Source of the DNA: Allorhodopirellula heiligendammensis
GTDB lineage: Bacteria; Planctomycetota; Planctomycetia; Pirellulales; Pirellulaceae
Assembly (NCBI RefSeq): GCF_007860105.1
Contig: NZ_SJPU01000003.1
Location: forward strand, 62,001 to 126,000
Reading direction: 5' to 3'
Length of the DNA stretch: 64,000 nt
The notes under the pieces are model-generated. The model was given only the letters and a program-made list of their open reading frames with translations, was not told the origin of the DNA and ran no database searches. A program made the position numbers and the translations under genes. The first letter of the stretch is position 1. The number at the start of each line of letters is the position of its first letter. This document shows positions 27,396 through 62,083 of this stretch, in pieces.

Positions 27396-28361
27396 ATGTC
27401 AGCATCACGCGATTCCATTCTAAAAATCTCTGCGGCAATGAATGCCGCGATCATCGGCCAGGAGACTGTCGTCGAGCGTTTGTTGATCGCGTTACTGACC
27501 GGTGGCAACGTACTGATGGAGGGTCTGCCGGGGACGGCCAAAACACGCTCGATCAAGACGCTATCGCGGCTGATTGAAGGCGAGTTTTCGCGGGTCCAGT
27601 TCACGCCCGACCTCCTGCCCTCTGATGTGACGGGATCAGAAATCTATCGAGAGAAAACGGCCACGTTCGAGTTTCAGCCCGGACCGATTTTTGGCAATTT
27701 GGTACTCGCTGATGAGATCAACCGGGCGCCCGCAAAGGTGCAGGCGGCCCTGCTCGAAGCGATGGAAGAACATCAGGTGACGGTCGCTGGCACGACTCAT
27801 AAACTGCCCGAGCTGTTCCTCGTGTTGGCGACGCAGAACCCGATCGAACAAGAGGGTACGTATCCATTACCGGAGGCCCAGATGGACCGATTCCTGCTCT
27901 ATGTGCAGGTACCCTATCCGGCTGCCGAAAACGAGTTGTCAATATTGCAGTTGGTTCGCCGCGAGAGCGTTGCAGAGACTCCAGCGGTGTTGGATCCAAT
28001 CTTGCAAGAGACAATTTTTGCGATCCGCAAAGAGATTGATTCAATGCATGTCGCCCCTGCTGCAGAGCAGTACATGGTGGATCTCGTCGTCGCCACCCGC
28101 GACCCAATCCGTTACGACAAGGAACTGGCGAGTTTGATCCAGCTCGGTGCCTCGCCCCGTGGAACCATCGCACTGGATCGAGCGTCTCGCGCACGGGCTT
28201 GGTTGCAAGGCCATGACTTCGTCTCACCCGCGGACATTCAAGCGATCGCTCCGGCCTGCTTGGCTCATCGTGTCCATTTGTCGTATGAAGCCGAGGCGGC
28301 AGGCAAATCACGAGAGGACGTCATCGGCGAAGTCATTCAGCGGGTCGCCGTCACAGCTTGA
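27396..28361 (+). CDS. MoxR-family AAA+ ATPase
   Basis: The product is 321 residues. Walker A GLPGTAKT spans 43-50, Walker B LVLADEINRAPAK has Asp105-Glu106, sensor 1 is LVLATQNPIEQEGTYPLPEA and the arginine-finger area is QMDRFLLYVQV. The C-terminal lid contains GASPRGTIALDRASRARAWL. MoxR ATPases act as chaperones that insert metals or activate VWA-domain proteins. It starts a seven-gene cluster whose members overlap or nearly touch: DUF58, DUF4381, two VWA proteins, a TPR protein and a BatD-like protein. This matches the Bat (Bacteroides aerotolerance-like) arrangement. Confidence 0.96.
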   Translation: MSASRDSILKISAAMNAAIIGQETVVERLLIALLTGGNVLMEGLPGTAKTRSIKTLSRLIEGEFSRVQFTPDLLPSDVTGSEIYREKTATFEFQPGPIFGNLVLADEINRAPAKVQAALLEAMEEHQVTVAGTTHKLPELFLVLATQNPIEQEGTYPLPEAQMDRFLLYVQVPYPAAENELSILQLVRRESVAETPAVLDPILQETIFAIRKEIDSMHVAPAAEQYMVDLVVATRDPIRYDKELASLIQLGASPRGTIALDRASRARAWLQGHDFVSPADIQAIAPACLAHRVHLSYEAEAAGKSREDVIGEVIQRVAVTA

Positions 28362-28373
28362 GCTATTTGAGTC

Positions 28374-29288
28374 ATGGGCAGTCATCCCTATACACGATTC
28401 GAAGACCTTGTTCGCCTGCGTCATGCCGCCGGCGGGTTTTCGTTGTTACCGAAGCAGCCCGTCAGTAGCTTGCTCAGTGGCCAACATGCGTCACGGCTGC
28501 GTGGTCGAGGGATGATGTTCGAAGAACTGCGTGATTATCGGCCGGGTGACGATATCCGCCAGATGGATTGGAAGGCGACAGCGAGGTTGCGTAAACCTTA
28601 TATACGTGTCTACTCGGAAGAACGTGAGCGGACGGTTTTATTGGTTGTCGATCAACGGACGTCAATGTTTTTCGGTAGCGAGCGAACGACCAAGGCGACA
28701 GCCGCAGCCGAGGTCGCGGCTTTGGCTGCGTGGCGAGCAATCGATGGGGGCGACCGCATTGGAGCCATCGTGTTTGGCGACGATGAGACGTTGGAATTGC
28801 GGCCCCGACGCAGCCGAGAAAGCGTGCTGCACATCTGTCATGAAATCACACGCATGAACCAGCAGTTGTCCGCGGACCAGCTTGCGGAGGACTCGTCGAG
28901 GCGTCTCAATGATGCGTTGAGGCAGTGCGTCAATGTTGCCAAACACGATTGTCTCGTTGTTCTCGTCACCGACTATGCAGGCGACGATGATGAAACCCGA
29001 CGCCTAACCACCCAGTTGGCTTCTCATAACGATGTGTTGGCGTTTTTGGTCTACGATCCGTTGGGGATCCGTCTGCCTGCAAGGGGCCAACTGCACGCGA
29101 CCGATGGTAGTACCCAGTATTCGATTCCCTCGGGTCCGGAATTTGCGCAGTCTTTTGAAACCTCCTTTCGCGCTCGCTGTGATCAATTGCGAGAGCGACT
29201 CGGCGCGATCCGTGTTCCCATCGTGCCGATTTGCACCCATGAGCCGGTGGCTCGACAGATCTTGGCGGCAATGGGGGAACGACCGTGA
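28374..29288 (+). CDS. DUF58 protein of the MoxR/VWA operon
   Basis: The product is 304 residues. The DUF58 hallmark ELRDYRPGDDIRQMDWKATA is at about 52-71, followed by LLVVDQRTSMFFGS, a VWA-like MIDAS loop, and CLVVLVTDYAGDDD. DUF58 proteins are the usual direct partners of MoxR ATPases; the exact activity is unknown. It starts 12 bases after the MoxR stop and overlaps the DUF4381 gene by four bases (GTGA). There are no membrane segments, so it acts in the cytoplasm, unlike the two VWA proteins downstream. Confidence 0.94.
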   Translation: MGSHPYTRFEDLVRLRHAAGGFSLLPKQPVSSLLSGQHASRLRGRGMMFEELRDYRPGDDIRQMDWKATARLRKPYIRVYSEERERTVLLVVDQRTSMFFGSERTTKATAAAEVAALAAWRAIDGGDRIGAIVFGDDETLELRPRRSRESVLHICHEITRMNQQLSADQLAEDSSRRLNDALRQCVNVAKHDCLVVLVTDYAGDDDETRRLTTQLASHNDVLAFLVYDPLGIRLPARGQLHATDGSTQYSIPSGPEFAQSFETSFRARCDQLRERLGAIRVPIVPICTHEPVARQILAAMGERP

Positions 29289-29791
29289 ATGACTCCCATG
29301 ATGTTGGCAGCCTGGATAGTCTTCGCGATATTGTCGAGCTGTCACCTGTATCGTGGTGGCCGCCCGCTCCGGGGTGGTGGATTTTACTGGCACTGGCAAC
29401 TGCGCTGGTGTGCTTTGCCGTGTGGCGTTTTTGGCGAAACTGGCGTCGCAACGCCTACCGCCGTGCGGCGATCGCGGACTTAAGTTCAGCGACGAGCCCA
29501 GCACAGATTGCAGCGATCCTTAAACGCACCGCGCTGGTCGCCTACCCGCGGATAGATGTCGCGTCGATGACAGGGACACAGTGGTGTGACTGGTTGGCCA
29601 AGTCGAGTGGGGCTCCCGTGTCAAGCCGCGCCTCGCAACAACTGATATCGGGCGTTTTTCAGGAGGAGGAGGTAGCGAGTCTTCATGAGTTGAGTGAATT
29701 CGCGACGGCCTGGATTCATCACCACGTCGACGCTCGTTTCGCGACTGAAGATATCTGTGACGCAGGTACCGGGAGGCCGACCGAATGCTGA
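29285..29791 (+). CDS. DUF4381 membrane protein
   Basis: The product is 168 residues. After a short proline-rich lead (SPVSWWPPAPGWWILLAL) comes one transmembrane segment (about residues 30-50), then a cytoplasmic helical domain with YRRAAIADL and ALVAYPRIDVASMTGTQWCD. This is the DUF4381 pattern found only in MoxR/VWA operons. The start is a GTG overlapping the DUF58 stop codon, and the 3' end overlaps the start of the first VWA gene by seven bases. It probably anchors the soluble MoxR/DUF58 pair to the membrane VWA proteins. Confidence 0.88.
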   Translation: MNDSHDVGSLDSLRDIVELSPVSWWPPAPGWWILLALATALVCFAVWRFWRNWRRNAYRRAAIADLSSATSPAQIAAILKRTALVAYPRIDVASMTGTQWCDWLAKSSGAPVSSRASQQLISGVFQEEEVASLHELSEFATAWIHHHVDARFATEDICDAGTGRPTEC

Positions 29792-30858
29792 CCTTCGCCT
29801 ATCCATGGCTATTTTTGCTGACGCCCTTGCCCGTCCTGGTTTATTGGCTGGTGCCTCCGCGAACATCCAATGATGTTGCCGTTCGGACTCCGTTCTTCGA
29901 TCGCGTACAACAGGCGAGCGCGGGTCAACTGAGGACTGACGCGAGTGATCCGATGCGCAGCCCGCTAGTGATCTCCACTCTCGTGTGGCTGTTCATTTTG
30001 CTGGCACTGACGCGTCCACAATGGCTCGAACCACCGATTGAGAAGACAATCCCCACGCGAGACTTACTATTGTTGGTGGATTTATCGGGATCGATGGATG
30101 AAAAAGATTTCACGGGCACCGATGGTAAGCCGATCACCCGATTAGCGGCAGTGAAAGAAGTATTGGGTGATTTTCTGATTCGTCGCAAAGGCGACCGCGT
30201 GGGTTTAGTCGTGTTTGGAAATTCGCCATTTCTGCAGGTTCCTTTCACAACCGATTTAGAACTGTGTCAGCAATTGCTCGATGAGACCGCCGTGCGGATG
30301 GCGGGTCCGAGGACCGCATTGGGGGACGCGATTGGATTGGGGATTCATCTGTTCGACAATAGTGACGCTCCTGCCAAGACGATCATTGCCTTGACCGATG
30401 GCAACGACACAGCGAGCTCGGTACCGCCCGTCGAGGCGGCCAGGGTGGCGAAAGATCGCGGGATCAAAATCAACACGATCGCGATGGGTAACCCCCAGAC
30501 AGTCGGAGAGGAGAAACTCGATCAGGTATCGTTGCGCTCGGTGGCTCAGGAAACCGGCGGCAACTTTTTCCTCGCTCTGGATCGGTCGCAACTTGTCAAT
30601 GTTTATGCGGAACTGGACAAAATCGAAACGCGAAAAGTGAAGACAGTCAGCTTCCGCCCGCGACGCGATCTGTATTATTGGCCCCTTTCAGCGGCCGTGT
30701 TGGTCTCCCTGGCCGGTCACATTTGGCTGCTGTGGACCAATCGTCGGGATACCACGGCGAGTTCATCGCCGATGCGATTGAAGGTAAATCCGCGAACCTT
30801 TGAGCTGGAGACCATTGAGTTGACTCCTGCCCGCGGGGAGGTCAACCATGCTGGCTAA
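29785..30858 (+). CDS. VWA-domain membrane protein (BatA-like)
   Basis: The product is 357 residues. Two transmembrane segments at the N-terminus (about 6-25 and 60-78) and one near 310-330 frame a periplasmic or cytoplasmic VWA domain. The MIDAS site is intact: DLSGS at 99-103, Thr in AGPRTALGDA and ALTDGND at 202-208. This is the BatA/BatB layout. VWA domains bind a divalent metal and a protein ligand, and their assembly is assisted by MoxR. Its start overlaps the DUF4381 gene and its end overlaps the next VWA gene, so all are translationally coupled. Confidence 0.93.
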   Translation: MLTFAYPWLFLLTPLPVLVYWLVPPRTSNDVAVRTPFFDRVQQASAGQLRTDASDPMRSPLVISTLVWLFILLALTRPQWLEPPIEKTIPTRDLLLLVDLSGSMDEKDFTGTDGKPITRLAAVKEVLGDFLIRRKGDRVGLVVFGNSPFLQVPFTTDLELCQQLLDETAVRMAGPRTALGDAIGLGIHLFDNSDAPAKTIIALTDGNDTASSVPPVEAARVAKDRGIKINTIAMGNPQTVGEEKLDQVSLRSVAQETGGNFFLALDRSQLVNVYAELDKIETRKVKTVSFRPRRDLYYWPLSAAVLVSLAGHIWLLWTNRRDTTASSSPMRLKVNPRTFELETIELTPARGEVNHAG

Positions 30859-31777
30859 TTTTCATTTTATCCGTCCGTACTGCCTCTTGTTCATTCCGGT
30901 CGTCATCCTGGTGTGGTGGCTGGTACGTCGGGCTCACGATCCACTGCGTGGTTGGCGGTCTTCAATGGATCACGAACTCCTGACAGCCCTGACTGTAGGG
31001 GATACCACACGTGACAGATGGCGCAGCGTGGTAGTACTGGTCGCATGGTTGCTGGCAACTATTTCCGTGGCGGGGCCGACATGGCATCTGGAACCCTCGC
31101 CCTTTTCAGATGATCCGGTTCCGCTGCTGCTGCTGCTGCTAGCGGACGAGTCCATGGACCAGGACGACCTGGCCCCGAGCCGGATGGAGCGAGCTCGATT
31201 GAAGGTAGCTGATATTGCGAACAGTCGCAAAGGTCAGCCGCTCGGGTTAATCGCTTACGCTGGCACGGCGCACCTCGTGTTACCACCGACACGCGATACT
31301 TCGGTGGTTGCGACCATGGCTGCCGAAATCAGTCCAGCTATCATGCCCAAAGACGGTAATTCTCTCATCGACGCGTTGCAGCTTGCCAGTCGAACGCTTC
31401 AACAGAGTGGCGGCTCGGTGATTGTGATCGCCGACGGCGTGCCTGTGGAAGGTGCCGCGGCATTGACGAGGTTTCAGCAATCAAGCTCGCTACCTGTACA
31501 GATACTGGAGGTGGCACCAGCTGATTCTGCCGATGCATCTGCAATGGATGCGGCGGCAGCAGCATTGAAGGCGAGAGTGGTTCGGATCACCCCGGATGAC
31601 GAGGACGTGCGAGGATTGATACGTGATGCCGCACGCTCTCCACGAACTGTGGCTGCGGCGGATCGTGGAACCCGCTGGGCCGAATCCGGCTGGTGGCTTG
31701 TGCCGGTTCTTTGCGTCCTAACGCTAGTCTCGTTTCGCCGCACGGTCTCGAATGTTCTCCAGGAGCGGGACTCATGA
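30848..31777 (+). CDS. Second VWA-like membrane protein with altered MIDAS
   Basis: The product is 309 residues, related in plan to the preceding VWA protein: N-terminal transmembrane segments (about 10-26 and 60-76), a VWA-like domain and a C-terminal transmembrane segment. The MIDAS motif is altered. The first motif reads DESMD (100-104) in place of D-x-S-x-S, and the usual T-D pair reads IADGVP. It may not bind metal. A leucine run (VPLLLLLLADES) precedes the site. It overlaps the gene before by 11 bases and the TPR gene after by four. It fits the BatB position. Confidence 0.85.
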   Translation: MLANFHFIRPYCLLFIPVVILVWWLVRRAHDPLRGWRSSMDHELLTALTVGDTTRDRWRSVVVLVAWLLATISVAGPTWHLEPSPFSDDPVPLLLLLLADESMDQDDLAPSRMERARLKVADIANSRKGQPLGLIAYAGTAHLVLPPTRDTSVVATMAAEISPAIMPKDGNSLIDALQLASRTLQQSGGSVIVIADGVPVEGAAALTRFQQSSSLPVQILEVAPADSADASAMDAAAAALKARVVRITPDDEDVRGLIRDAARSPRTVAAADRGTRWAESGWWLVPVLCVLTLVSFRRTVSNVLQERDS

Positions 31778-32367
31778 AACTAATGGCAACAATGCTGCTG
31801 ATCGGTGCGTTCACGTGGTCGGATCTTTGGTTTTCTCCCGACCAACGAGGACAGCGACTGATGCGTGACGGTGAGTTCGCTCAGGCCGCTGCTGCGTTCC
31901 AGGATCCAATGCGGCAAGGCATTGCATGGTTTCGCGCGGGCGAGTTTAAAAAAGCGGAGCAATCCTTTCGACGGCTTTCAACTCCCGACGCGATCTATAA
32001 CCGTGGCAATTGCCAGGTGATGCAAGGCAAATATGAGGCCGCTGTTGAGACCTACGATCGTGCACTCAAGCGGCAGCCAGATTTTCCAGCTGCCACAACC
32101 AATCGCGAGATTGCAGTCATCCGCGCCAAGCGAGTTGCGCAGGAAGGCGGCGATCTCGGGGATCAGCAGGAAGGTGCTGACGACATCACGTTCGACAAAA
32201 AGGAGCCGGGCGGCCAAGAGACGGTCGTGCAAGCGCAGCAACCAATCTCGAGTGCCGCCATGCAAGCGATGTGGCTCCGCCGCGTGCAAACAAAGCCAGC
32301 CGAGTTTCTCAAAGCAAAGTTTGCTTACCAAGATGCATTTGCCGGCACGCAGGGAGATTCCAAATGA
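31774..32367 (+). CDS. TPR protein (BatC-like)
   Basis: The product is 197 residues. The N-terminus is hydrophobic (MKLMATMLLIGAFTWSDLWF), a signal or anchor, and then TPR helices follow: GQRLMRDGEFAQAAAAFQDP, GEFKKAEQSFRRLSTPDAIY, GNCQVMQGKYEAAVETYDRA, LKRQPDFPAATTNREIAVIR. The C-terminal part is charged and probably disordered. TPR proteins of this type sit in the BatC position of VWA operons and may bring the VWA subunits together. The start overlaps the VWA stop (ATGA), which is why I take 31774; its stop overlaps the next gene by four bases. Confidence 0.88.
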   Translation: MKLMATMLLIGAFTWSDLWFSPDQRGQRLMRDGEFAQAAAAFQDPMRQGIAWFRAGEFKKAEQSFRRLSTPDAIYNRGNCQVMQGKYEAAVETYDRALKRQPDFPAATTNREIAVIRAKRVAQEGGDLGDQQEGADDITFDKKEPGGQETVVQAQQPISSAAMQAMWLRRVQTKPAEFLKAKFAYQDAFAGTQGDSK

Positions 32368-33647
32368 CAGAGTTGCGTGGGACTTTTTTGCTGCTAGCAC
32401 TGATTGGGCCAGTATCGAGTTGGGCTGAGCAAAGTTCGGTCGAGGCATCGATCGAAAAGAAGTCAGCCTGGACGGGGGAGGCCGTGCCGCTGACGATAAA
32501 GCTGTTCTCGCCGGGGCCATTCGATGGCACGCCAGCCTTCGATATTCCTCAACTACCACTCACTGCCATTATCAAGACCTCTGGCAGCCCGATTGTGCAA
32601 AGCGAGGAAATCGACGGAGATTCCTGGTTTAGCCAACAGTATGAGTTCGTGATCTATACCCAACGTGAGGGCGAAATCGTGCTTCCCTCATTCCAAGTTC
32701 GCTTTGAGGGAAAGAGAACATTCACGGGCGACGCTGAGCCGATGCAGGGCAACACGAGCGAACTGCGGTTCCAGTCCAAGCGACCTCCTGGTACGCGTGA
32801 ACTTGGATTTGTTGTCGCAGTGTCTGCGTTAGAAATTTCACAGCAATGGAACCCCGATTCGGACAGCCCCATTAAGGCGGGTGACGTGATTGAACGAAAA
32901 ATTTCGCGTCATGCCGACGGCACCACTGCGATGATGTTTAACCCGATCGAGCCCGCCGCACCCGAGGGGATTCAGGTATATCCCTCCGACCCCGTCGTGC
33001 AGGACGATACAGAGCGGGGGGCATCCCAGGCCGAAAGAGTCGATACGATCAAGTATCAGTTCCCGCGCGGCGGCACGTTTGAATTGCCGGACATCACTCT
33101 GACATGGTGGGACACGAAGAACAGCTCACTGCAACGCCAAACGTTGGCGGGACGATCGGTCGAGGTTGTTGCTGCACCGCCAGTAGCCGCTGTGCCCACA
33201 TCATCTTGGCGGGGAAGATTGAGCTGGATTTTCATATCGATCGCAGCAATGGGTATCCTGGGATGGTTGATCCGTAAACCGGTAGTGGCAGCCATTTCCC
33301 GGTGGCATGCCGTGCGAAATAGCCCAGAGCGACTTGCCGCCAGACGATTGGGTTCCGCGTGCCAGTCGAACGATGCGCCAGCGGCCTACATGGCTTGGAT
33401 GGATTGGCAGTTGGCCATGGAGGCATCCGATCCGACTTGGCAGACTCGGTTGCCAGTCGCGCTTGCCAAGGAGTTTCGCAGCCAATGCGACGTCCTCACT
33501 GGTGAGCTCTATGCAAGCCATAAAGCCGAATCTCGTTGGGACGGCCCAGCGTTCATCGAAGTTTTTAAGCGTGTCTGCCACGCGCTCACTCAACCTGCCG
33601 GATCACAGGGTGCTCCTCCCGCACTTCCCAAACTCAACCCGACCTAG
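32364..33647 (+). CDS. BatD-like membrane protein
   Basis: The product is 427 residues. A signal peptide (ending near SSWAEQ) precedes a large region of beta-sandwich domains (SSVEASIEKKSAWTGEAVPL, VRFEGKRTFTGDAEPMQGNT, KAGDVIERKISRHADGTTA), then GTFELPDITLTWWDTKN, a transmembrane segment at about 310-330 (WIFISIAAMGILGWLI) and a cytoplasmic helical tail. This is the BatD plan. Its start is fixed by the ATGA overlap with the TPR gene. It closes the seven-gene operon; a weak hairpin follows about 30 bases later. Confidence 0.88.
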   Translation: MTELRGTFLLLALIGPVSSWAEQSSVEASIEKKSAWTGEAVPLTIKLFSPGPFDGTPAFDIPQLPLTAIIKTSGSPIVQSEEIDGDSWFSQQYEFVIYTQREGEIVLPSFQVRFEGKRTFTGDAEPMQGNTSELRFQSKRPPGTRELGFVVAVSALEISQQWNPDSDSPIKAGDVIERKISRHADGTTAMMFNPIEPAAPEGIQVYPSDPVVQDDTERGASQAERVDTIKYQFPRGGTFELPDITLTWWDTKNSSLQRQTLAGRSVEVVAAPPVAAVPTSSWRGRLSWIFISIAAMGILGWLIRKPVVAAISRWHAVRNSPERLAARRLGSACQSNDAPAAYMAWMDWQLAMEASDPTWQTRLPVALAKEFRSQCDVLTGELYASHKAESRWDGPAFIEVFKRVCHALTQPAGSQGAPPALPKLNPT

Positions 33648-33730: not shown

Positions 33731-34405
33731 TCAACCGAGAACGTGTGGTAATAACTCGCTGAGATGATTGATCACTGCCGTTGGGGTCGCGTTGAGCAGC
33801 TGCGTTTGCGTTTGTGCGCCGGTCGTGATGCCAAAGGTCATTCCGCATTTCGCATTCTTGCCCTCTTCAATATCAATCTCGCTGTCGCCTACTTTGACAA
33901 CCGCGCGAGCGTCCTTTACTCCCGTGGCAGACATCGCTTGGAAAATCATATCAGGAGCCGGCCGTCCATTCTGAACGTCGCTCGCGGTGATCAATCCGTC
34001 GATATCTGCGCCGATCGTCCAGCCAATCTTGTCAATCAGGCCTTTCGCTGTGACTCGGTCGTAGCCAGTATTTAGTACGACCTTAATCCCTCGTTTCCGT
34101 AACGCCACAAAGACTTCGGTTGTACCGGGTTGCGGTCGGACATGCAGGACCGCGTATGCTTGGGCGAGCCGCTGTTGGAAGTCCGCGAAGATGGCTGCCA
34201 CCTCGTCTGCTGAGTGCTGGTTTCCATCGGTAGCCAAAACGTCGCGGATCGCTTGTGATTTTTCCTTGCCAGCTCCAGCCGTCTGAACTTGGTCCTGGGT
34301 AAATGCATATCCAGCAGCGTTGATTGCTTGGCGAACGGTTTTGTAGACGACGTTATCTTCATCGACAGTGGTGCCAGCCATGTCGAATACAATCAATTCA
34401 ATCAT
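33731..34405 (-). CDS. PhnX-like HAD hydrolase (phosphonatase-like)
   Basis: The product is 224 residues. HAD motif I is FDMAGTTVDEDN, with the Ala-Gly seen in phosphonatases instead of the common Asp-Gly. It has a cap segment GAGKEKSQAIRDVL that aligns with the MGxxKxxxI loop which in PhnX supplies the Schiff-base lysine (candidates Lys47 and Lys49), motif II LNTGYD, motif III Lys in RPAPDMIFQ and motif IV KVGDSEIDIEEGKNA. Phosphonatase hydrolyses phosphonoacetaldehyde to acetaldehyde and phosphate. The PhnX-like subgroup often lacks the lysine, so its substrate may differ. It is the last gene of an operon with the PhoD-like and alcohol-dehydrogenase genes. Its start at 34405 overlaps the upstream gene by eight bases. 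Confidence 0.85.
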   Translation of the reverse strand: MIELIVFDMAGTTVDEDNVVYKTVRQAINAAGYAFTQDQVQTAGAGKEKSQAIRDVLATDGNQHSADEVAAIFADFQQRLAQAYAVLHVRPQPGTTEVFVALRKRGIKVVLNTGYDRVTAKGLIDKIGWTIGADIDGLITASDVQNGRPAPDMIFQAMSATGVKDARAVVKVGDSEIDIEEGKNAKCGMTFGITTGAQTQTQLLNATPTAVINHLSELLPHVLG

Positions 34406-36533
34406 TGTCCAATTTCTTTTCACGCGAATGTTGCGAGCCGGATGCTGGCTCATTGTGTTGTGTGAAGACCGACTCGATTTCTTGTTGACTAAGCGCACGT
34501 TCCCATACTGCGACTTCGTCGACCCAGCCATCGAAGTTGCGTCCCACCGCGTCGCGGTGACCGCCGATTACCAACCCACCGAACTCGGCGGCAGGTCCAG
34601 AGACAGGCAATTGGTTTGATGCAGCTCGTTTACCATCGATGTAGAGGTTGATTTGCTTTGAATCAAATGTGAATAACACGTGAGTCCAGCGGTCGAGGAG
34701 CTGTTCGCGATCAATCAAGAAGTCAAATGGACCCTGCGCGAGAGTCGTGGGTGCCATTTGAGATTGCGCTGGTTTCAACGTAACGGTATGCAATTGCAAA
34801 TTAACTTTACCTTCGTCCGCTGCTGCCGCGCGGAGCCCCAGTGACAAATGCCATGCCGTTTTGGGGCTGGGATGACCTTCGGCAGTACTCTCCAGCAAAA
34901 AGTGTCGGTCCGTCGATTCTGCACCTGGCAGACTTTCAGGCTTGAACCAGAGCGAGACGGTGTGGGCGTCTGAGTTATCATCCAGAAAGCTTCGCTGAAC
35001 CGTCACGGATTGCTGTTGGTCACGATGCAGGCGAACGGCTCCGCCGCGGATCCCTCCCTCTGCGAAGATCGCAGCACCATGGTGTGAAACGGCGTCGATG
35101 CGATTTCCCAAGATGGAATCGTTTTCAAAGCCATCATCGAAGTGCCAGTTCGCTCGCAATGAGTTTTGCAATCCTTGAGGGAGTTCTCGCGGTGTCATCT
35201 CGCTGAGCCTTAACTCGACGCGGCGATTGACCTTTCCATCGGTTTGCCGATACTCGGCGATCAGGTGAGGCTCCTCACCGGTTCCGTCTGCGGTCAGAGT
35301 GAGGAATTGCCAGCCTTCGACTAAGGACCACTCCAGCGATGGGTGATAGACATCCAGTTCTGTGATGGTGCGAGTGTGGCCAGGTGAGATGACGAAATCG
35401 TGAAGGTTGTAGCCAACCCGTTGTGGGTGGACGAGGTGTCGGGACACGTGGATGTCCCCACCCAATAATGTGACACCCGAAATTTGCTCTTCGGCGACGA
35501 AATCTAACAACGCGTCCCGTTCGTACCAGTAGGTAAACATGTCGTCGATCTCTCTGTTCTTCTTATCCTGCCAGACGGAGCCAAGTGCGATCACCTTGAA
35601 GGGCGCTTCGGACGCTTTCAGTCCACTGAGCAACCAGGTCCATTGGTCGGCACCAAAGCATGTCGTCTCCGCCGGATCGACTGGCGACGGTTCGGTTTGA
35701 GAGAAATAACGTGGATCCAGTAGGAAAACTTCAATCATGCCTAGATCAACTTTATGATAGACGCCCTCGCGGCCATTGCCATACTGAGTATGTGCGCGAT
35801 AGTCGACGAATCCCCTCCGCGTGTTGGGCTTGCCAGATATCATATTCAGACCATTGCCGTTATTGCGGCCAAAGTCATGATCGTCCCAGACACCAATGGT
35901 CGGCGTGTGCGTCGCCAACGATGCTAGGTCCGGCATTTGCAGAAACATCCGATGCCGCTGGCGGACAACATTCAAGTCAGAATTGTCGATGTATGGCGTG
36001 TCCCCCATCAAGCACAACGTATTCACGCCCAAGGACTCCATCTCGTTCCAAATGCCATTGGGCTCAATGTCGACGCAGGATACAAAACCAACGGTGACGC
36101 AGTGTCCCTCACGGGCGGGACTGGCTGTGGTGAACCTGTGCTTGGGACCGGGGGCAATCAGCGTCCTGGTCGGACTGCCGAGAGCATCGATTTGGTAGCG
36201 ATAAGTAGTCGCCGGGGTGAGACTATTGACAGTGAACTTGGCGACGTGGTCCGTGCTCTCGTCAGCCAATGATTCGACGATCGAAACAACGCTGCCACTC
36301 TCGGACAGTACAGTCAGCTGCAGTTTTTGTTCCTCACCACTCGGCCGGTAAAGCAAATGGGCAGTAGTCGCCTCTACCGTACCCACAAGTGGCCCAACGA
36401 CCTCATTGGCACGTACATGCCAATGCGGCGGAAAGATCCAGGCGAGGCAGAAACTCAGCACGAAAAGCATCCACTCTGGTATGCGAAATAACATGACCGT
36501 GCGTTGCAAACTTACTCGCTGGTTTATGATCAT
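34398..36533 (-). CDS. PhoD-like phosphoesterase fused to a LamG domain
   Basis: The product is 711 residues. A signal or anchor segment (about 12-35) is followed by a fibronectin-like PhoD N-domain (about 45-135), a metallophosphoesterase core with GDTPYIDNSD, GVWDDHDFGRNNG and LGGDIHVSRH, and a C-terminal LamG/concanavalin domain (about 500-705: HTVSLWFKPESLPGAES, FDSKQINLYIDGKRAAS, GWVDEVAVWERALSQQEIES). PhoD enzymes are Ca/Fe-dependent phosphodiesterases. The LamG suggests it acts on a phosphate ester carried by a glycan or cell-wall polymer. The ATGA overlap with the alcohol-dehydrogenase stop fixes the start. It would release phosphate or phosphonate esters for the neighbouring genes. 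Confidence 0.87.
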   Translation of the reverse strand: MIINQRVSLQRTVMLFRIPEWMLFVLSFCLAWIFPPHWHVRANEVVGPLVGTVEATTAHLLYRPSGEEQKLQLTVLSESGSVVSIVESLADESTDHVAKFTVNSLTPATTYRYQIDALGSPTRTLIAPGPKHRFTTASPAREGHCVTVGFVSCVDIEPNGIWNEMESLGVNTLCLMGDTPYIDNSDLNVVRQRHRMFLQMPDLASLATHTPTIGVWDDHDFGRNNGNGLNMISGKPNTRRGFVDYRAHTQYGNGREGVYHKVDLGMIEVFLLDPRYFSQTEPSPVDPAETTCFGADQWTWLLSGLKASEAPFKVIALGSVWQDKKNREIDDMFTYWYERDALLDFVAEEQISGVTLLGGDIHVSRHLVHPQRVGYNLHDFVISPGHTRTITELDVYHPSLEWSLVEGWQFLTLTADGTGEEPHLIAEYRQTDGKVNRRVELRLSEMTPRELPQGLQNSLRANWHFDDGFENDSILGNRIDAVSHHGAAIFAEGGIRGGAVRLHRDQQQSVTVQRSFLDDNSDAHTVSLWFKPESLPGAESTDRHFLLESTAEGHPSPKTAWHLSLGLRAAAADEGKVNLQLHTVTLKPAQSQMAPTTLAQGPFDFLIDREQLLDRWTHVLFTFDSKQINLYIDGKRAASNQLPVSGPAAEFGGLVIGGHRDAVGRNFDGWVDEVAVWERALSQQEIESVFTQHNEPASGSQHSREKKLDND

Positions 36534-37702
36534 CGGAAAGACTCTGTCCTTGGGGAAGATTGCAGCAGTTCCATGAGTGTCGTCGCATCGGCGGACCGGG
36601 GATTGTTCGACATGCGCTCGGCGTTCACGCTGGTGACGATTTTTCTCAGCGTCGCAGCGTCTCCGACCCCTGCCCGCGCAGGCGAACACGCACACCCGAT
36701 AGCGGTGATCATTGTATCGAGCTGCACGCAAGCCTCGTGCACACCGGCAGTACCCAACAGGTTCATAATCAATTCGATTCGCTTGCGAACATGATCAGCG
36801 CCCCTTGGATCCATGCAGTCTTCGTCGGATACGCCGGCATTGTGTGCCAGCATCCGGCTAATGGTCATCGCAACGGCCATGCCATGTGGAATCTTGTGCT
36901 GTGAGGTGAAGCCATACGATAGGGCGTGAGAAGCAGTCGTTTTGCTGATGTTGATCGCCTTGCCGGACAGATGCGAAGCTTGGCACATGCCCATCCGCGA
37001 TACTGGCGATGGTTGAACGACCGCATCGACGAGGTGCTCTCGAGCGAGCTCAACGGCTGCTGCTGCGTAGCCGACCGATTCGTCGGTCGCGCCGACCGCC
37101 CAGATCGATTCAATGGCTTGGCAAAATGCATCCAATCCCGTCGCCGCTGTGATCCGTGGCGGCAGACTTGCCGTCAAACTCGGGTCAACGATCGCGTGGC
37201 TTGGCAGCAGGAACTTGTGAGAGACAGAATACTTTTGCTGGTCCACGTAAGCGACAGCGAATTGGGTCGCCTCACTTCCCGTGCCCGCTGTTGTTGGAAT
37301 CGCCACCAGGGGCGGACCGCATTTCGTAATACCGACCCTACCGGTCACAATATCCATAGCCGTGGCGGGCTGGACCGCGATCGACCCAATTAATTTGCCC
37401 AAGTCGATCGCAGTGCCTCCGCCCAGTGCAATCACTATCTGCGGGCGAGTCTTTTGGAATTGTCGAATTCCTCGCTCGATGTCATGAAATTGAGGGTTCA
37501 GTTCAAAGTCGTTGAACCGTGTAGCCTGGCATGTTGCCAATGCCGTGGTGAGGATCCGATTCGCCCCCGACGCGTGCGCAGCGTCCTCGTCAACGACCAG
37601 CAAAACCCTCTCGGCACCGAAATCTCGAACCAGAACGCCTATACTATGGATCGCGTTCTCCGCGAGGTTAACCGTCGGTTCGCCGCAAAGGTTCTCAGGC
37701 AT
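36530..37702 (-). CDS. Fe-dependent alcohol dehydrogenase, phosphonoacetaldehyde/HEP type
   Basis: The product is about 390 residues. Group III alcohol dehydrogenase signatures are present: ALGGGTAIDLGKLIGSIA (NAD loop), IPTTAGTGSEATQFAV, LDAFCQAIES and HALSYGFTSQHKIPHGMAVA. Metal ligands Asp and the two later His are kept, but the first His is Gln (DAFCQ). The segment GKAINISKTTASHALSY closely resembles enzymes that interconvert phosphonoacetaldehyde and 2-hydroxyethylphosphonate. The operon with a PhnX-like hydrolase supports that assignment. Starts at 37756 or 37807 are also open. It is divergent from the XRE-cupin regulator. Confidence 0.78.
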   Translation of the reverse strand: MPENLCGEPTVNLAENAIHSIGVLVRDFGAERVLLVVDEDAAHASGANRILTTALATCQATRFNDFELNPQFHDIERGIRQFQKTRPQIVIALGGGTAIDLGKLIGSIAVQPATAMDIVTGRVGITKCGPPLVAIPTTAGTGSEATQFAVAYVDQQKYSVSHKFLLPSHAIVDPSLTASLPPRITAATGLDAFCQAIESIWAVGATDESVGYAAAAVELAREHLVDAVVQPSPVSRMGMCQASHLSGKAINISKTTASHALSYGFTSQHKIPHGMAVAMTISRMLAHNAGVSDEDCMDPRGADHVRKRIELIMNLLGTAGVHEACVQLDTMITAIGCACSPARAGVGDAATLRKIVTSVNAERMSNNPRSADATTLMELLQSSPRTESFR

Positions 37703-37870
37703 GGCTGGTTTGGGGTAGTGATTTACGATCAACAGAAAGTGATTTTTAATCCACATGGGCTTCCGATGCAATGCAGCTCTTGGGCCGAGCATGGCAGCGG
37801 CCAGCAAGCAGCGACGTCACCGTTATCCGAGCATATAGCTATCGATGATCGCTTGATTTAGAATCACGAC

Positions 37871-38425
37871 ATGAACGTCGTCGAACTTGCTCAGCGAATC
37901 CGCGCCCATCGTCTCGCCCAGCATCTAACTCTCGAGGAGGTGGCCTCGCAGACGGGCCTGACGCGGAGTTGGCTTTCCAAGGTCGAGAATTTTCGCGTCA
38001 CACCGTCACTGCAGGCGCTAGGTCAGATTGCCAGGGCGTTGGGCGTGTCGGTCAGCGACTTAGTATCCGGCCTGGATGAGAAACCGACACTCGTATCGGT
38101 GCGTAAAGACGAACGTCAAGTGGTTCAGCGGGACAACAATGCTCGCAACGAAACCGTCTACGAATCGCTGGCTCATAAACGTCCCAATCGATCGATGGAT
38201 CCGTTTTTGCTGACGGTGCCAGCCGAAACTGTTCGCGACGAAGCCCTCTCCCACGAGGGTGAGGAGTTTCTGATGTTGCAGGGTGGCACGATCGACTTTG
38301 AATATGACGGCAACATCCAGACCCTGCGAGCGGGAGACTGCCTTTACTTCGACAGCAATGTGCCGCATCGAATTCTTAATCCGTATAAGCGTCCAGCGAC
38401 GGTGCTATGTGTCTTTAGTAAATAG
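37871..38425 (+). CDS. XRE-cupin transcriptional regulator
   Basis: The product is 184 residues. An XRE helix-turn-helix occupies about residues 5-62 ([40 protein letters not shown]), then a linker and a small cupin barrel (about 112-182: [39 protein letters not shown]). Such regulators bind small metabolites in the cupin and repress neighbours. It is transcribed divergently from the alcohol-dehydrogenase operon with a gap of about 170 bases, so it likely controls that operon and itself. The cupin keeps Glu/His candidates for metal binding. Confidence 0.9.
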
Positions 38426-40508: not shown

Positions 40509-41456
40509 TCAATGGCTTGCCAACGCTAGAACGCACTGACGGAATGCGCTTTGATGAGCGGGTTCACGACGGTTGCGGCGTGACAGAATGACCAGCTTTT
40601 CCTCGCCGAAGACTGTCTTTAAACTGCGAAAGCCGAGTTTCTTTTGGACTCCCCTCTCCGCATTGAAAAGCGTAATCTGACGGCGGTTAAGGGGGACGAT
40701 CGCGATCCCAATTCCGAAGCGTACAAACTGCAGCATCAGCTCTTTCGTGTTGGTCTCACAGACATTTCGCACATCAGCCAGCAACCCAGCACTTTCGAAT
40801 ACTTGATCGACACGCGTCCGTGTATTCGATCCGGCGTGATACATTACCAGCGGATATCTGACGAGCGCCTCTGGTGTGATCTTGACTTCATCCAGGATTG
40901 GATGGTCGTCCGGGCTCACCATCGTGAATGGGACTGAGGCGAGATGATCGACATTCAGGCTTTTTGGGAACGAAGTTTCCAGTGTACCGGCAATGGCGAG
41001 ATCCACATCACCTTCCTCGAGCATTTTTCGGGCTCGATTGGAGTCCACGTCAATGAAGTTAAGTTCAACGTTGGGGAATTGAAAGTTATATTCGCGAATC
41101 GATTCCATGAGATCGTAGATGAGCTTGTTCGCCGGCGAGGCGATCGTGAGTCGTTGGGCAGCTAATGAAGCTCGCCCTTTGAACTGCTCCAAGATCGAAT
41201 CGAAACCCTCCAGAATCGGCCGGGCGAGTTGAACGAACTGTTTGCCATCTTTGGTGAGCGTGACCTCCTGACGATTGACCTCTACCAAGGCAATGCCGAA
41301 CTCCTGCTCAAGGGCACGCACTTGCTGCCAAACCGAAGGCGTCGACAATTCCAAGACCTCGGCCGTGGCAGCAAATCCATCGCCCTTGGCAAGCTCTACA
41401 ATCGCGCGAAACTGAGCAATTCGGATCTGCTTGTAGTATCGGCGTTTGGTCGTCAT
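40509..41456 (-). CDS. LysR-family transcriptional regulator
   Basis: The product is 315 residues. The HTH is at about 13-72 (IAQFRAIVELAKGDGFAATA, LELSTPSVWQQVRALEQEFG, VEVNRQEVTLTKDGKQFVQ), and the type 2 periplasmic-binding-like effector domain follows (RLTIASPANKLIYDLMESI, DVDLAIAGTLETSFPK, LMLQFVRFGIGIAIVPL). LysR regulators respond to small co-inducers. No divergent target gene is present; the 550-bp region upstream contains no gene, so the target is unknown. The N-terminal MTTKRRYYKQIRI lead is slightly longer than usual. Confidence 0.93.
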   Translation of the reverse strand: MTTKRRYYKQIRIAQFRAIVELAKGDGFAATAEVLELSTPSVWQQVRALEQEFGIALVEVNRQEVTLTKDGKQFVQLARPILEGFDSILEQFKGRASLAAQRLTIASPANKLIYDLMESIREYNFQFPNVELNFIDVDSNRARKMLEEGDVDLAIAGTLETSFPKSLNVDHLASVPFTMVSPDDHPILDEVKITPEALVRYPLVMYHAGSNTRTRVDQVFESAGLLADVRNVCETNTKELMLQFVRFGIGIAIVPLNRRQITLFNAERGVQKKLGFRSLKTVFGEEKLVILSRRNRREPAHQSAFRQCVLALASH

Positions 41457-61872: not shown

Positions 61873-62083
61873 GTAGCCGAGTCTCTCCGAGACTCGCGCA
61901 CACCACCTCCAGACGAGTCTCGGAGAGACTTTGGCAGAGCTTGCCTTTGCGAGTCTCGGAGGGACTTTGGCAGAGTTTACCTTTGCGAGTCTCGGAGAGA
62001 CTTTGGCAGAGTTTACCTTTGCGAGTCTCGGAGAGACTTTGGCAGAGCTTGACTTTGCGAGTCTCGGAGAGACTCGCCTACTC
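61871..62083. repeat. Tandem 36-bp repeat cassette bounded by inverted hairpins
   Basis: Four 36-bp units begin CGAGTCTCGGAGAGACTTTG at 61914, 61950, 61986 and 62022, each with few changes, and a partial fifth at 62058. The ends (61871-61896 and 62058-62083) are 26-bp inverted copies with one mismatch. Each end is also a hairpin: CGAGTCTC, three-base loop, GAGACTCG. The cassette lies between the helicase stop and the FetB gene start. Its translation (repeated LRVSERLWQSLP) is low in complexity and probably not a protein. Confidence 0.85.

Follow-up and report, generated by a model that had tools for sequence, protein, structure and literature searches.

The hydrolytic pathways described for aminophosphonates, PhnW-PhnX, PhnW-PhnY-PhnA and PbfD-PhnX, have a variable first enzyme that leads to phosphonoacetaldehyde (PAA), and they free the phosphate with PhnX or with PhnY and PhnA (available sections of PMC10590968). 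According to the same sections, PbfD enzymes, including that of Mariniblastus fucicola, make PAA from N-methyl-aminoethylphosphonate (N-methyl-AEP) and AEP. An operon of Allorhodopirellula heiligendammensis, which ends in a PhnX-like hydrolase, follows this plan with another kind of first enzyme. It lies in a window of 64,000 nucleotides, the whole stretch analysed here (positions 62,001 to 126,000 of contig NZ_SJPU01000003.1; G000:C3:62001-126000, where G000 is the 7.2 Mb source genome, other G numbers are related genomes and L numbers are fetched loci). We propose that it is probably an operon for the salvage of 2-hydroxyethylphosphonate (HEP), a compound likely carried as a polysaccharide ester.

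Polysaccharide esters of HEP and methylphosphonate hold up to 20% of the phosphorus in high-molecular-weight marine dissolved organic matter, according to the available part of PMC9381506; that of PMC5649143 gives phosphonates as 20%. The available literature describes use of the two compounds via carbon-phosphorus (C-P) lyase, with ethylene arising from HEP, and postulates an ester-cleaving enzyme without identifying it. Alkaline-phosphatase-like enzymes, PhoD named among them, are postulated to free the phosphonate esters from marine polysaccharides (PMC5649143, same part). Oxidation of HEP is presented as a possible direct feed into the hydrolytic pathways in the accessible text of PMC12366243, in which the candidate PbfF lacked such activity.

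Compared with the hydrolytic aminophosphonate pathways, the first enzyme of the A. heiligendammensis operon is a metal-dependent alcohol dehydrogenase, predicted to act on HEP, and not an aminotransferase, an ammonia lyase or an FAD amine oxidase; in addition, the operon includes a putative PhoD-LamG esterase that begins with a signal-like segment. The likeness extends to XRE-cupin genes and DUF5690, which recur in related loci. All the pieces belong to known families, and the combination, in which an Fe-type alcohol dehydrogenase (FeADH) would feed HEP into PhnX or PhnYA sinks alongside a LamG-PhoD protein, is a variant of the hydrolytic phosphonate pathways. A limited literature search, which covered few subscription journals, found no description of an FeADH-HEP operon with LamG-PhoD.

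Gene content and active sites

An earlier note on this DNA had described three co-oriented, overlapping genes beside a divergent XRE-cupin gene, and had assigned the three to an FeADH, a PhoD with LamG and a PhnX-like HAD hydrolase with a DMAGT motif. All four genes were recovered at those positions, and the family assignments held at Pfam and NCBIfam cut-offs. The features are as follows.

36530..37702, minus strand: FeADH; longest open reading frame (ORF) from 37807, likely ATG 37702 or 37756; PF00465 and PF25137 above cut-off
37118..37120, minus strand: Gln230 of FeADH, atypical metal ligand with Asp226, His294 and His308 (alignment, 18/18)
34398..36533, minus strand: PhoD-LamG protein; longest ORF from 36731; PF09423, PF13385
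35442..35975, minus strand: PhoD catalytic domain (Pfam match), residues 253-430 of the long ORF
34476..35015, minus strand: LamG/concanavalin-like lectin domain, residues 573-752 of the long ORF
33731..34405, minus strand: PhnX-like HAD hydrolase; longest ORF from 34531; TIGR03351 above cut-off
34259..34261, minus strand: Lys91 of the HAD hydrolase, aligned with the PhnX Schiff-base lysine (Lys53, B. cereus PhnX) by profile alignment
37703..37870, no strand: divergent intergenic region, presumed promoters and operator
37871..38425, plus strand: divergent XRE-cupin transcription factor; helix-turn-helix (HTH) and Cupin_2 domains (Pfam)

We chose the starts among candidate ATGs by fit to the families (FeADH 37702, PhoD 36533, HAD 34405). 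With these, FeADH and PhoD overlap by 4 bases, PhoD and HAD overlap by 8, and 168 bases separate the FeADH ATG from that of XRE-cupin. The overlaps between the long ORFs (36530-37807, 34398-36731 and 33731-34531, all on the minus strand) are greater because the first possible start codon was taken. Our reading of the operon draws on the genes present, their families and active-site residues, the swapping of neighbours and co-occurrence across genomes.

The HAD hydrolase scored 278.3 bits against the PhnX-like family TIGR03351 (cut-off 218.9) and carries the FDMAGT motif; against PhnX itself (TIGR01422) it scored 114.9 bits, below the cut-off of 220. A plain phosphoglycolate phosphatase was considered and rejected (59.9 bits vs 278.3 for TIGR03351). 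The earlier note had proposed comparison with Lys53 of PhnX, and the lysine proved to be kept: Lys91 falls on the PhnX Schiff-base lysine (hhalign, 13 PhnX-like sequences vs 10 of PhnX; 99.9% probability, E 9e-38) and is invariant in the PhnX-like proteins aligned (13/13). For the AlphaFold2 model (predicted local distance difference test, pLDDT, 82.6), Foldseek placed B. cereus PhnX structures at ranks 1-3. The enzyme thus resembles PhnX in its HAD fold, Asp nucleophile, Schiff-base lysine and best structural match; it differs in its shorter family model (220 positions in TIGR03351 vs 251) and in two alanines that are weighed below. G000 holds one TIGR03351 gene over cut-off, the next match reaching 48.7 bits. 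TIGR01422 gave no match over cut-off there, nor did PhnW (best 35.5 bits); PhnA gave none at E 1e-50, and PhnJ was not found. Among PhnX, PhnX-like and PhnA, the window HAD is the only PAA sink found in G000. Its assignment as a putative PAA hydrolase is well supported by family, by the lysine and by pairing with PbfD and FeADH.

FeADH matched PF00465 at 130.7 bits (cut-off 31.3). Among 18 NCBIfam families its best match was TIGR03405 (Phn_Fe-ADH, PsrA) at 177.3 bits, and the bifunctional acetaldehyde-CoA/alcohol dehydrogenase came second at 154 bits. The best solved relative in the PDB was 6JKO, the sulfoacetaldehyde reductase BkTauF. The earlier note had named membership in the butanol or lactaldehyde type, together with a HAD enzyme lacking the Schiff-base lysine and inactive on phosphonoacetaldehyde, as the outcome that would speak against its reading. 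The dehydrogenase did not match best there: its best model was TIGR03405 (177 bits, below cut-off) and its best structure BkTauF, lactaldehyde reductase models scored under TIGR03405, and PDB enzymes of the butanol and lactaldehyde type were weaker matches than 6JKO. TIGR03405 and PhpC share with FeADH the same predicted HEP/PAA chemistry, in addition to TIGR03405 being the best-scoring family; unlike them, FeADH stands with degradation genes, in a genome with no phosphoenolpyruvate (PEP) mutase match at E 1e-20. Among the contig-scan matches listed, the closest to FeADH came from a Planctomycetota metagenome-assembled genome (MAG; 41%).

The FeADH belongs to a discrete subfamily, found at 22 places in 21 of the 147 related genomes at a score of at least 214 bits, with the next matches at or below 130 bits. 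In an alignment of 18 of the 22 places (left out were the second copy of G047, on contig C227, and those of G050, G112 and G135), Asp226, Gln230, His294, His308, Thr290 and Tyr298 were common to all 18. The Gln ligand was present in 21/21 subfamily loci kept, and the next matches had His (9/9). The available text of PMC6616044 describes an unusual Gln ligand in BkTauF, poorly conserved among close BkTauF homologues, and a requirement for Thr and for a Phe at the position of the FeADH Tyr. It also describes BkTauF, in taurine metabolism, as interconverting isethionate with sulfoacetaldehyde. These two compounds are the sulfonate counterparts of HEP and PAA. FeADH has the same Asp-Gln-His-His metal site and the same Thr as BkTauF, which differs in acting on the sulfonate analogue; Phe265 of BkTauF is Tyr in FeADH, a change also found among BkTauF homologues (PMC6616044, same text). 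The use of a Gln ligand throughout the subfamily suggests a special substrate. The proposal that FeADH is a HEP dehydrogenase giving PAA is well supported by its context, namely by its PAA-consuming partners.

Partners and co-occurrence in related genomes

A PhnX, PhnX-like or PhnA gene lay within 5 kb of FeADH in 11/21 related genomes, where the rough random expectation was 0.2% per genome; the proximity of FeADH to a sink exceeds chance. The partners are of three kinds, all consuming PAA or its oxidation product: classic PhnX (G001, G018, G083, G025, G055, G065), PhnX-like (G000, G048, G023, G086; divergent and below the TIGR03351 cut-off in the last two) and, in G006, PhnA over cut-off with PhnY just under (625.9 vs 635.65). 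Because PhnX, PhnX-like and PhnY with PhnA have PAA in common, the alcohol would most simply be HEP, the oxidation of which offers an alcohol dehydrogenase the simplest access to PAA; the exact alcohol is unproven. The partners of PhnX-like are of two kinds, and one of them, PbfD, belongs to a family known to make PAA. The sequence from HEP through PAA to C-P cleavage that the earlier note had put forward is thus supported by comparative genomics, through neighbour swapping, co-occurrence and the kept lysine.

Among the more distant loci, the pairing also occurs outside the planctomycetes, in a Bacillota MAG (JASGUW010000135.1; L119:6058-7974) in which PhnX (40%) directly precedes a distant FeADH (31%). 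L166 has PhnA and PhnY 3-5 kb from an FeADH of the His type. Several of the distant loci listed have generic aldehyde dehydrogenases, 24-30% identical to PhnY, which were not counted. The FeADH frames of L096 and L097 were read by tblastn. In L047 and L048 (G023 and G086), class III aminotransferase genes (PF00202 confirmed in L047) lie near PhnX, DUF5690, PhnX-like and FeADH, and may be further aminophosphonate entry enzymes.

The same sinks also accompany PbfD. PhnX-like stood beside a PbfD-type FAD enzyme and DUF5690 in nine other genomes of the genus or family (L034-L042), with PbfD over the TIGR03364 cut-off and an XRE-cupin match in 5/9. A second G000 locus, outside the window (C1:480245-482775; L223:8051-10827), has DUF5690 beside a TIGR03364 PbfD (400 bits vs 285.1) and no hydrolase; the window HAD would probably serve this locus as well. 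PbfD is far from the FeADH-adjacent PhnX or PhnX-like, or on another contig, in G018, G083, G025, G055 and G048, and PhnX stands beside PbfD with FeADH apart in G030, G043, G050 and G070. In G006, of the same genus, all that comes after PbfD is a PhnX-like relic (L225:9467-9669), which has lost a large internal part and retains approximately residues 1-19 and 170-219 of the query; PhnA and PhnY adjoin FeADH there. PbfD was also present in 16/21 FeADH genomes, and a single PAA sink seems to serve both sources, FeADH and PbfD.

Genome-level counts agree with these arrangements. Sinks, taken as PhnX (54 genomes), PhnX-like (14) or PhnA (14), each over its own cut-off, were present in 81/147 genomes. 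Such a sink occurred in 20/21 FeADH genomes vs 61/126 genomes without FeADH (p 2e-5; by genus 16/17 vs 44/93, p 2e-4), in one-sided Fisher tests whose p-values are too small for related genomes, a bias that the genus-level figures correct in part. Presence counts are minima and absences are no proof, as the searches scored, for example, 12 of 52 TIGR03364 candidates in G000. The FeADH genome without a sink, G046, is 72% complete. With PhnX and PhnX-like as the only sinks, the figures were 18/21 vs 50/126 (p 8e-5). For PbfD, of which the matches over cut-off were counted (in 44 of 46 listed genomes), a sink was present in 43/44 genomes vs 38/103. The PhoD subfamily (at least 200 bits, 28 genomes) also tracked with sinks (26/28 vs 55/119, p 3e-6; by genus 17/19 vs 43/91, p 5e-4), and did so with the FeADH genomes excluded (17/19 vs 44/107, p 8e-5); genomes with weaker PhoD paralogs only did not (8/17 vs 73/130, p 0.83).

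DUF5690 was found in 73/147 genomes, and a sink accompanied it in 67/73 vs 14/74 genomes without it (p 1e-20). One member has a weak, below-cut-off match to the major facilitator superfamily, and our literature search found no paper on DUF5690. These associations make the protein a candidate phosphonate transporter.

The phosphoesterase, the regulator and the flanks

The PhoD-LamG protein matched PF09423 at 69.9 bits (cut-off 27) and Laminin_G_3 at 81.9 bits (cut-off 27.6), carries the conserved motifs GDTPY, WDDHDF and GGDIH, and begins with a hydrophobic segment that, read by eye, resembles a signal peptide. It did not reach the cut-off of 1000 for NF058638 (AlkPhosPhoDBac), scoring 25.8 bits. 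The model was of moderate confidence (pLDDT 72.5), with PhoD structure 2yeq as the best Foldseek match; its low-confidence LamG part matched many jelly-roll binding domains with low TM-scores and is read as a fold only. The protein thus shares the PhoD domain and conserved motifs with PhoD alkaline phosphatases/phosphodiesterases (PF09423; 2yeq), and is set apart by the added LamG and by lying within, or tracking with, C-P hydrolase genes. We propose that it is an extracellular or periplasmic esterase. Where FeADH genomes have the PhoD subfamily, PhoD is in the FeADH cluster in 8/9. Its substrate, which is unproven, is the weakest step of the proposed pathway.

Other phosphoesterase folds (LamG-metallophosphoesterase, type I phosphodiesterase) occur beside or near FeADH in G135 and G112, or beside PhnX-like in G095. 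The scan covered part of the neighbours, and genes of this kind abound in these genomes, so their presence lends weak support. In G135 (L097:7994-12309), FeADH adjoins a type I phosphodiesterase and a fusion of LamG with a metallophosphoesterase. In G095 (L044:1281-9031), PhnX-like is grouped closely with XRE-cupin, a type I phosphodiesterase and two LamG proteins, which resembles another glycan-esterase type of phosphonate locus.

The XRE-cupin protein combines HTH and Cupin_2 domains, and homologues of it (52-75%) occur in phosphonate loci of the FeADH type as well as of the PbfD type. We propose that it controls the operon, a role that is unproven. A search of 16 XRE-cupin upstream regions found no convincing operator common to the relatives: the best half-sites occurred in 5/16 (mainly same-genus loci) and 4/16, and 20 simple shuffles reached 3/16.

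On one flank of the locus lies an apparently unrelated operon of the MoxR-DUF58-Bat type (27396-33647, plus strand; BatD by Pfam, the rest by eye). The other flank has a DUF1559 pilin-type gene, of a family typical of planctomycetes, and a LysR gene, with no obvious relation to the locus. The second-best NCBIfam match of this LysR regulator (40509-41456, minus strand) is the aminoethylphosphonate LysR family TIGR03339 (113.8 bits vs a cut-off of 341.1), a connection that is unproven.

Proposed route and competing explanations

In the route we propose, the LamG domain would anchor the exported PhoD-LamG protein to a glycan, and the protein would hydrolyse a phosphonate (or phosphate) ester, freeing HEP. 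HEP would enter the cell, for which the DUF5690 protein, encoded elsewhere in G000, is a candidate carrier. FeADH is then predicted to oxidise HEP with NAD(P)+ to PAA, a step well supported by context, and the HAD hydrolase to form a Schiff base with PAA and release acetaldehyde and phosphate, a step for which family, lysine and context give good support. The XRE-cupin protein may sense a pathway compound and control the operon.

Several observations weigh against this route, along with the relatedness of the genomes and the minimum counts noted above. The FeADH score for TIGR03405 is far under the cut-off (177.3 vs 423.7), so the substrate assignment depends on context and on analogy with the sulfonate enzyme, of which Phe252 is Ile in FeADH. 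Met49 and His56 of PhnX, residues with roles in that enzyme, are both Ala in the window HAD, so that its efficiency on PAA may differ; in Foldseek, other HAD phosphatases score nearly as well as PhnX (2hi0, E 3e-14 vs 3e-15). No sink was found within 5 kb of FeADH in 10/21 FeADH genomes, and among the 80 distant loci listed, of which 2 are named planctomycete records, PhnX or PhnA was present in L119 and L166 alone. The co-occurrence of FeADH with PhoD is modest (9/28 vs 12/119, p 0.006; by genus p 0.04). PhoD-LamG orthologues (61-65% over the PhoD part) lie away from phosphonate genes in G002, G004, G005, G009, G040 and G057, and the protein is therefore not confined to HEP use.

The alternative with most weight accepts that FeADH and HAD handle HEP and PAA, and is compatible with both steps, but makes PhoD-LamG a general extracellular phosphodiesterase/phosphatase for phosphorus scavenging. 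PhoD of B. subtilis is a phosphodiesterase/alkaline phosphatase, 19/28 genomes with the PhoD subfamily have no FeADH, and 15 of these PhoD loci, fetched as stretches of 8 to 18 kb, contained none of FeADH, PhnX, PhnX-like, PbfD, DUF5690, PhnA and PhnY (in G095, PhnX-like is ~9 kb from PhoD, outside the fetched stretch). The tracking of the PhoD subfamily with sinks in genomes without FeADH (17/19 vs 44/107, p 8e-5) argues for a phosphonate role, as do the other phosphoesterase folds near FeADH or PhnX-like in G135, G112 and G095, common as such genes are. We regard general scavenging as a real possibility, somewhat short of an even chance. A different substrate for FeADH, whether some other 2-hydroxy-phosphonate or a sulfonate such as isethionate, is distinctly unlikely: an isethionate/sulfoacetaldehyde enzyme is its nearest relative of solved structure, but the recurrent partners act by family on phosphonoacetaldehyde or phosphonoacetate, and HEP oxidation gives PAA directly.

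Two further explanations keep the hydrolase and change the part played by FeADH. It could be a helper that reduces the acetaldehyde from PhnX or PhnX-like to ethanol, the substrate being an aminophosphonate or PAA from elsewhere, with no HEP step. FeADHs often act on acetaldehyde, and the acetaldehyde-CoA/alcohol dehydrogenase model, at 154 bits, is the second-best NCBIfam match. The chemistry of PhnX does yield acetaldehyde (PMC10590968, available sections), but none of the 17 fetched PbfD-PhnX(-like) loci had FeADH in the stretch (0/17; it is 18 kb off in G112 and 13 kb off in G135). In G030 and G043, moreover, FeADH stands with PhoD and without PhnX, which is with PbfD on another contig, and the special substrate to which the Gln ligand points also argues against a helper. 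Acetaldehyde detoxification was set aside on the G006 arrangement, in which FeADH sits with PhnA and PhnY; the PhnY-PhnA route ends in acetate, not acetaldehyde. On balance the helper role is unlikely. Still less probable, to a degree that we consider it highly improbable, is a PAA reductase of phosphonate biosynthesis with neighbours that recycle excess PAA. The available part of PMC9381506 lists PhpC, an Fe-ADH, as a reductase of phosphonoacetaldehyde. The FeADH partners, however, are C-P cleaving enzymes, and no PEP mutase match at E 1e-20 was found in G000 and 12 same-genus genomes; among 40 genomes examined, 16 had PEP mutase matches, all below cut-off. The biosynthetic role was set aside on the lack of a PEP mutase match in G000.

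The HEP salvage reading, in turn, names concrete genes for both missing steps, the cleavage of the ester and the oxidation of HEP. More tentatively, planctomycetes may possess a full HEP-ester route free of C-P lyase, in which the LamG-anchored PhoD subfamily would be a phosphonate-ester hydrolase, the Gln-type FeADH a catabolic HEP dehydrogenase, the sinks interchangeable and DUF5690 the carrier. If this is true, the products from HEP would be phosphate and either acetaldehyde or acetate, in place of the ethylene produced by C-P lyase.

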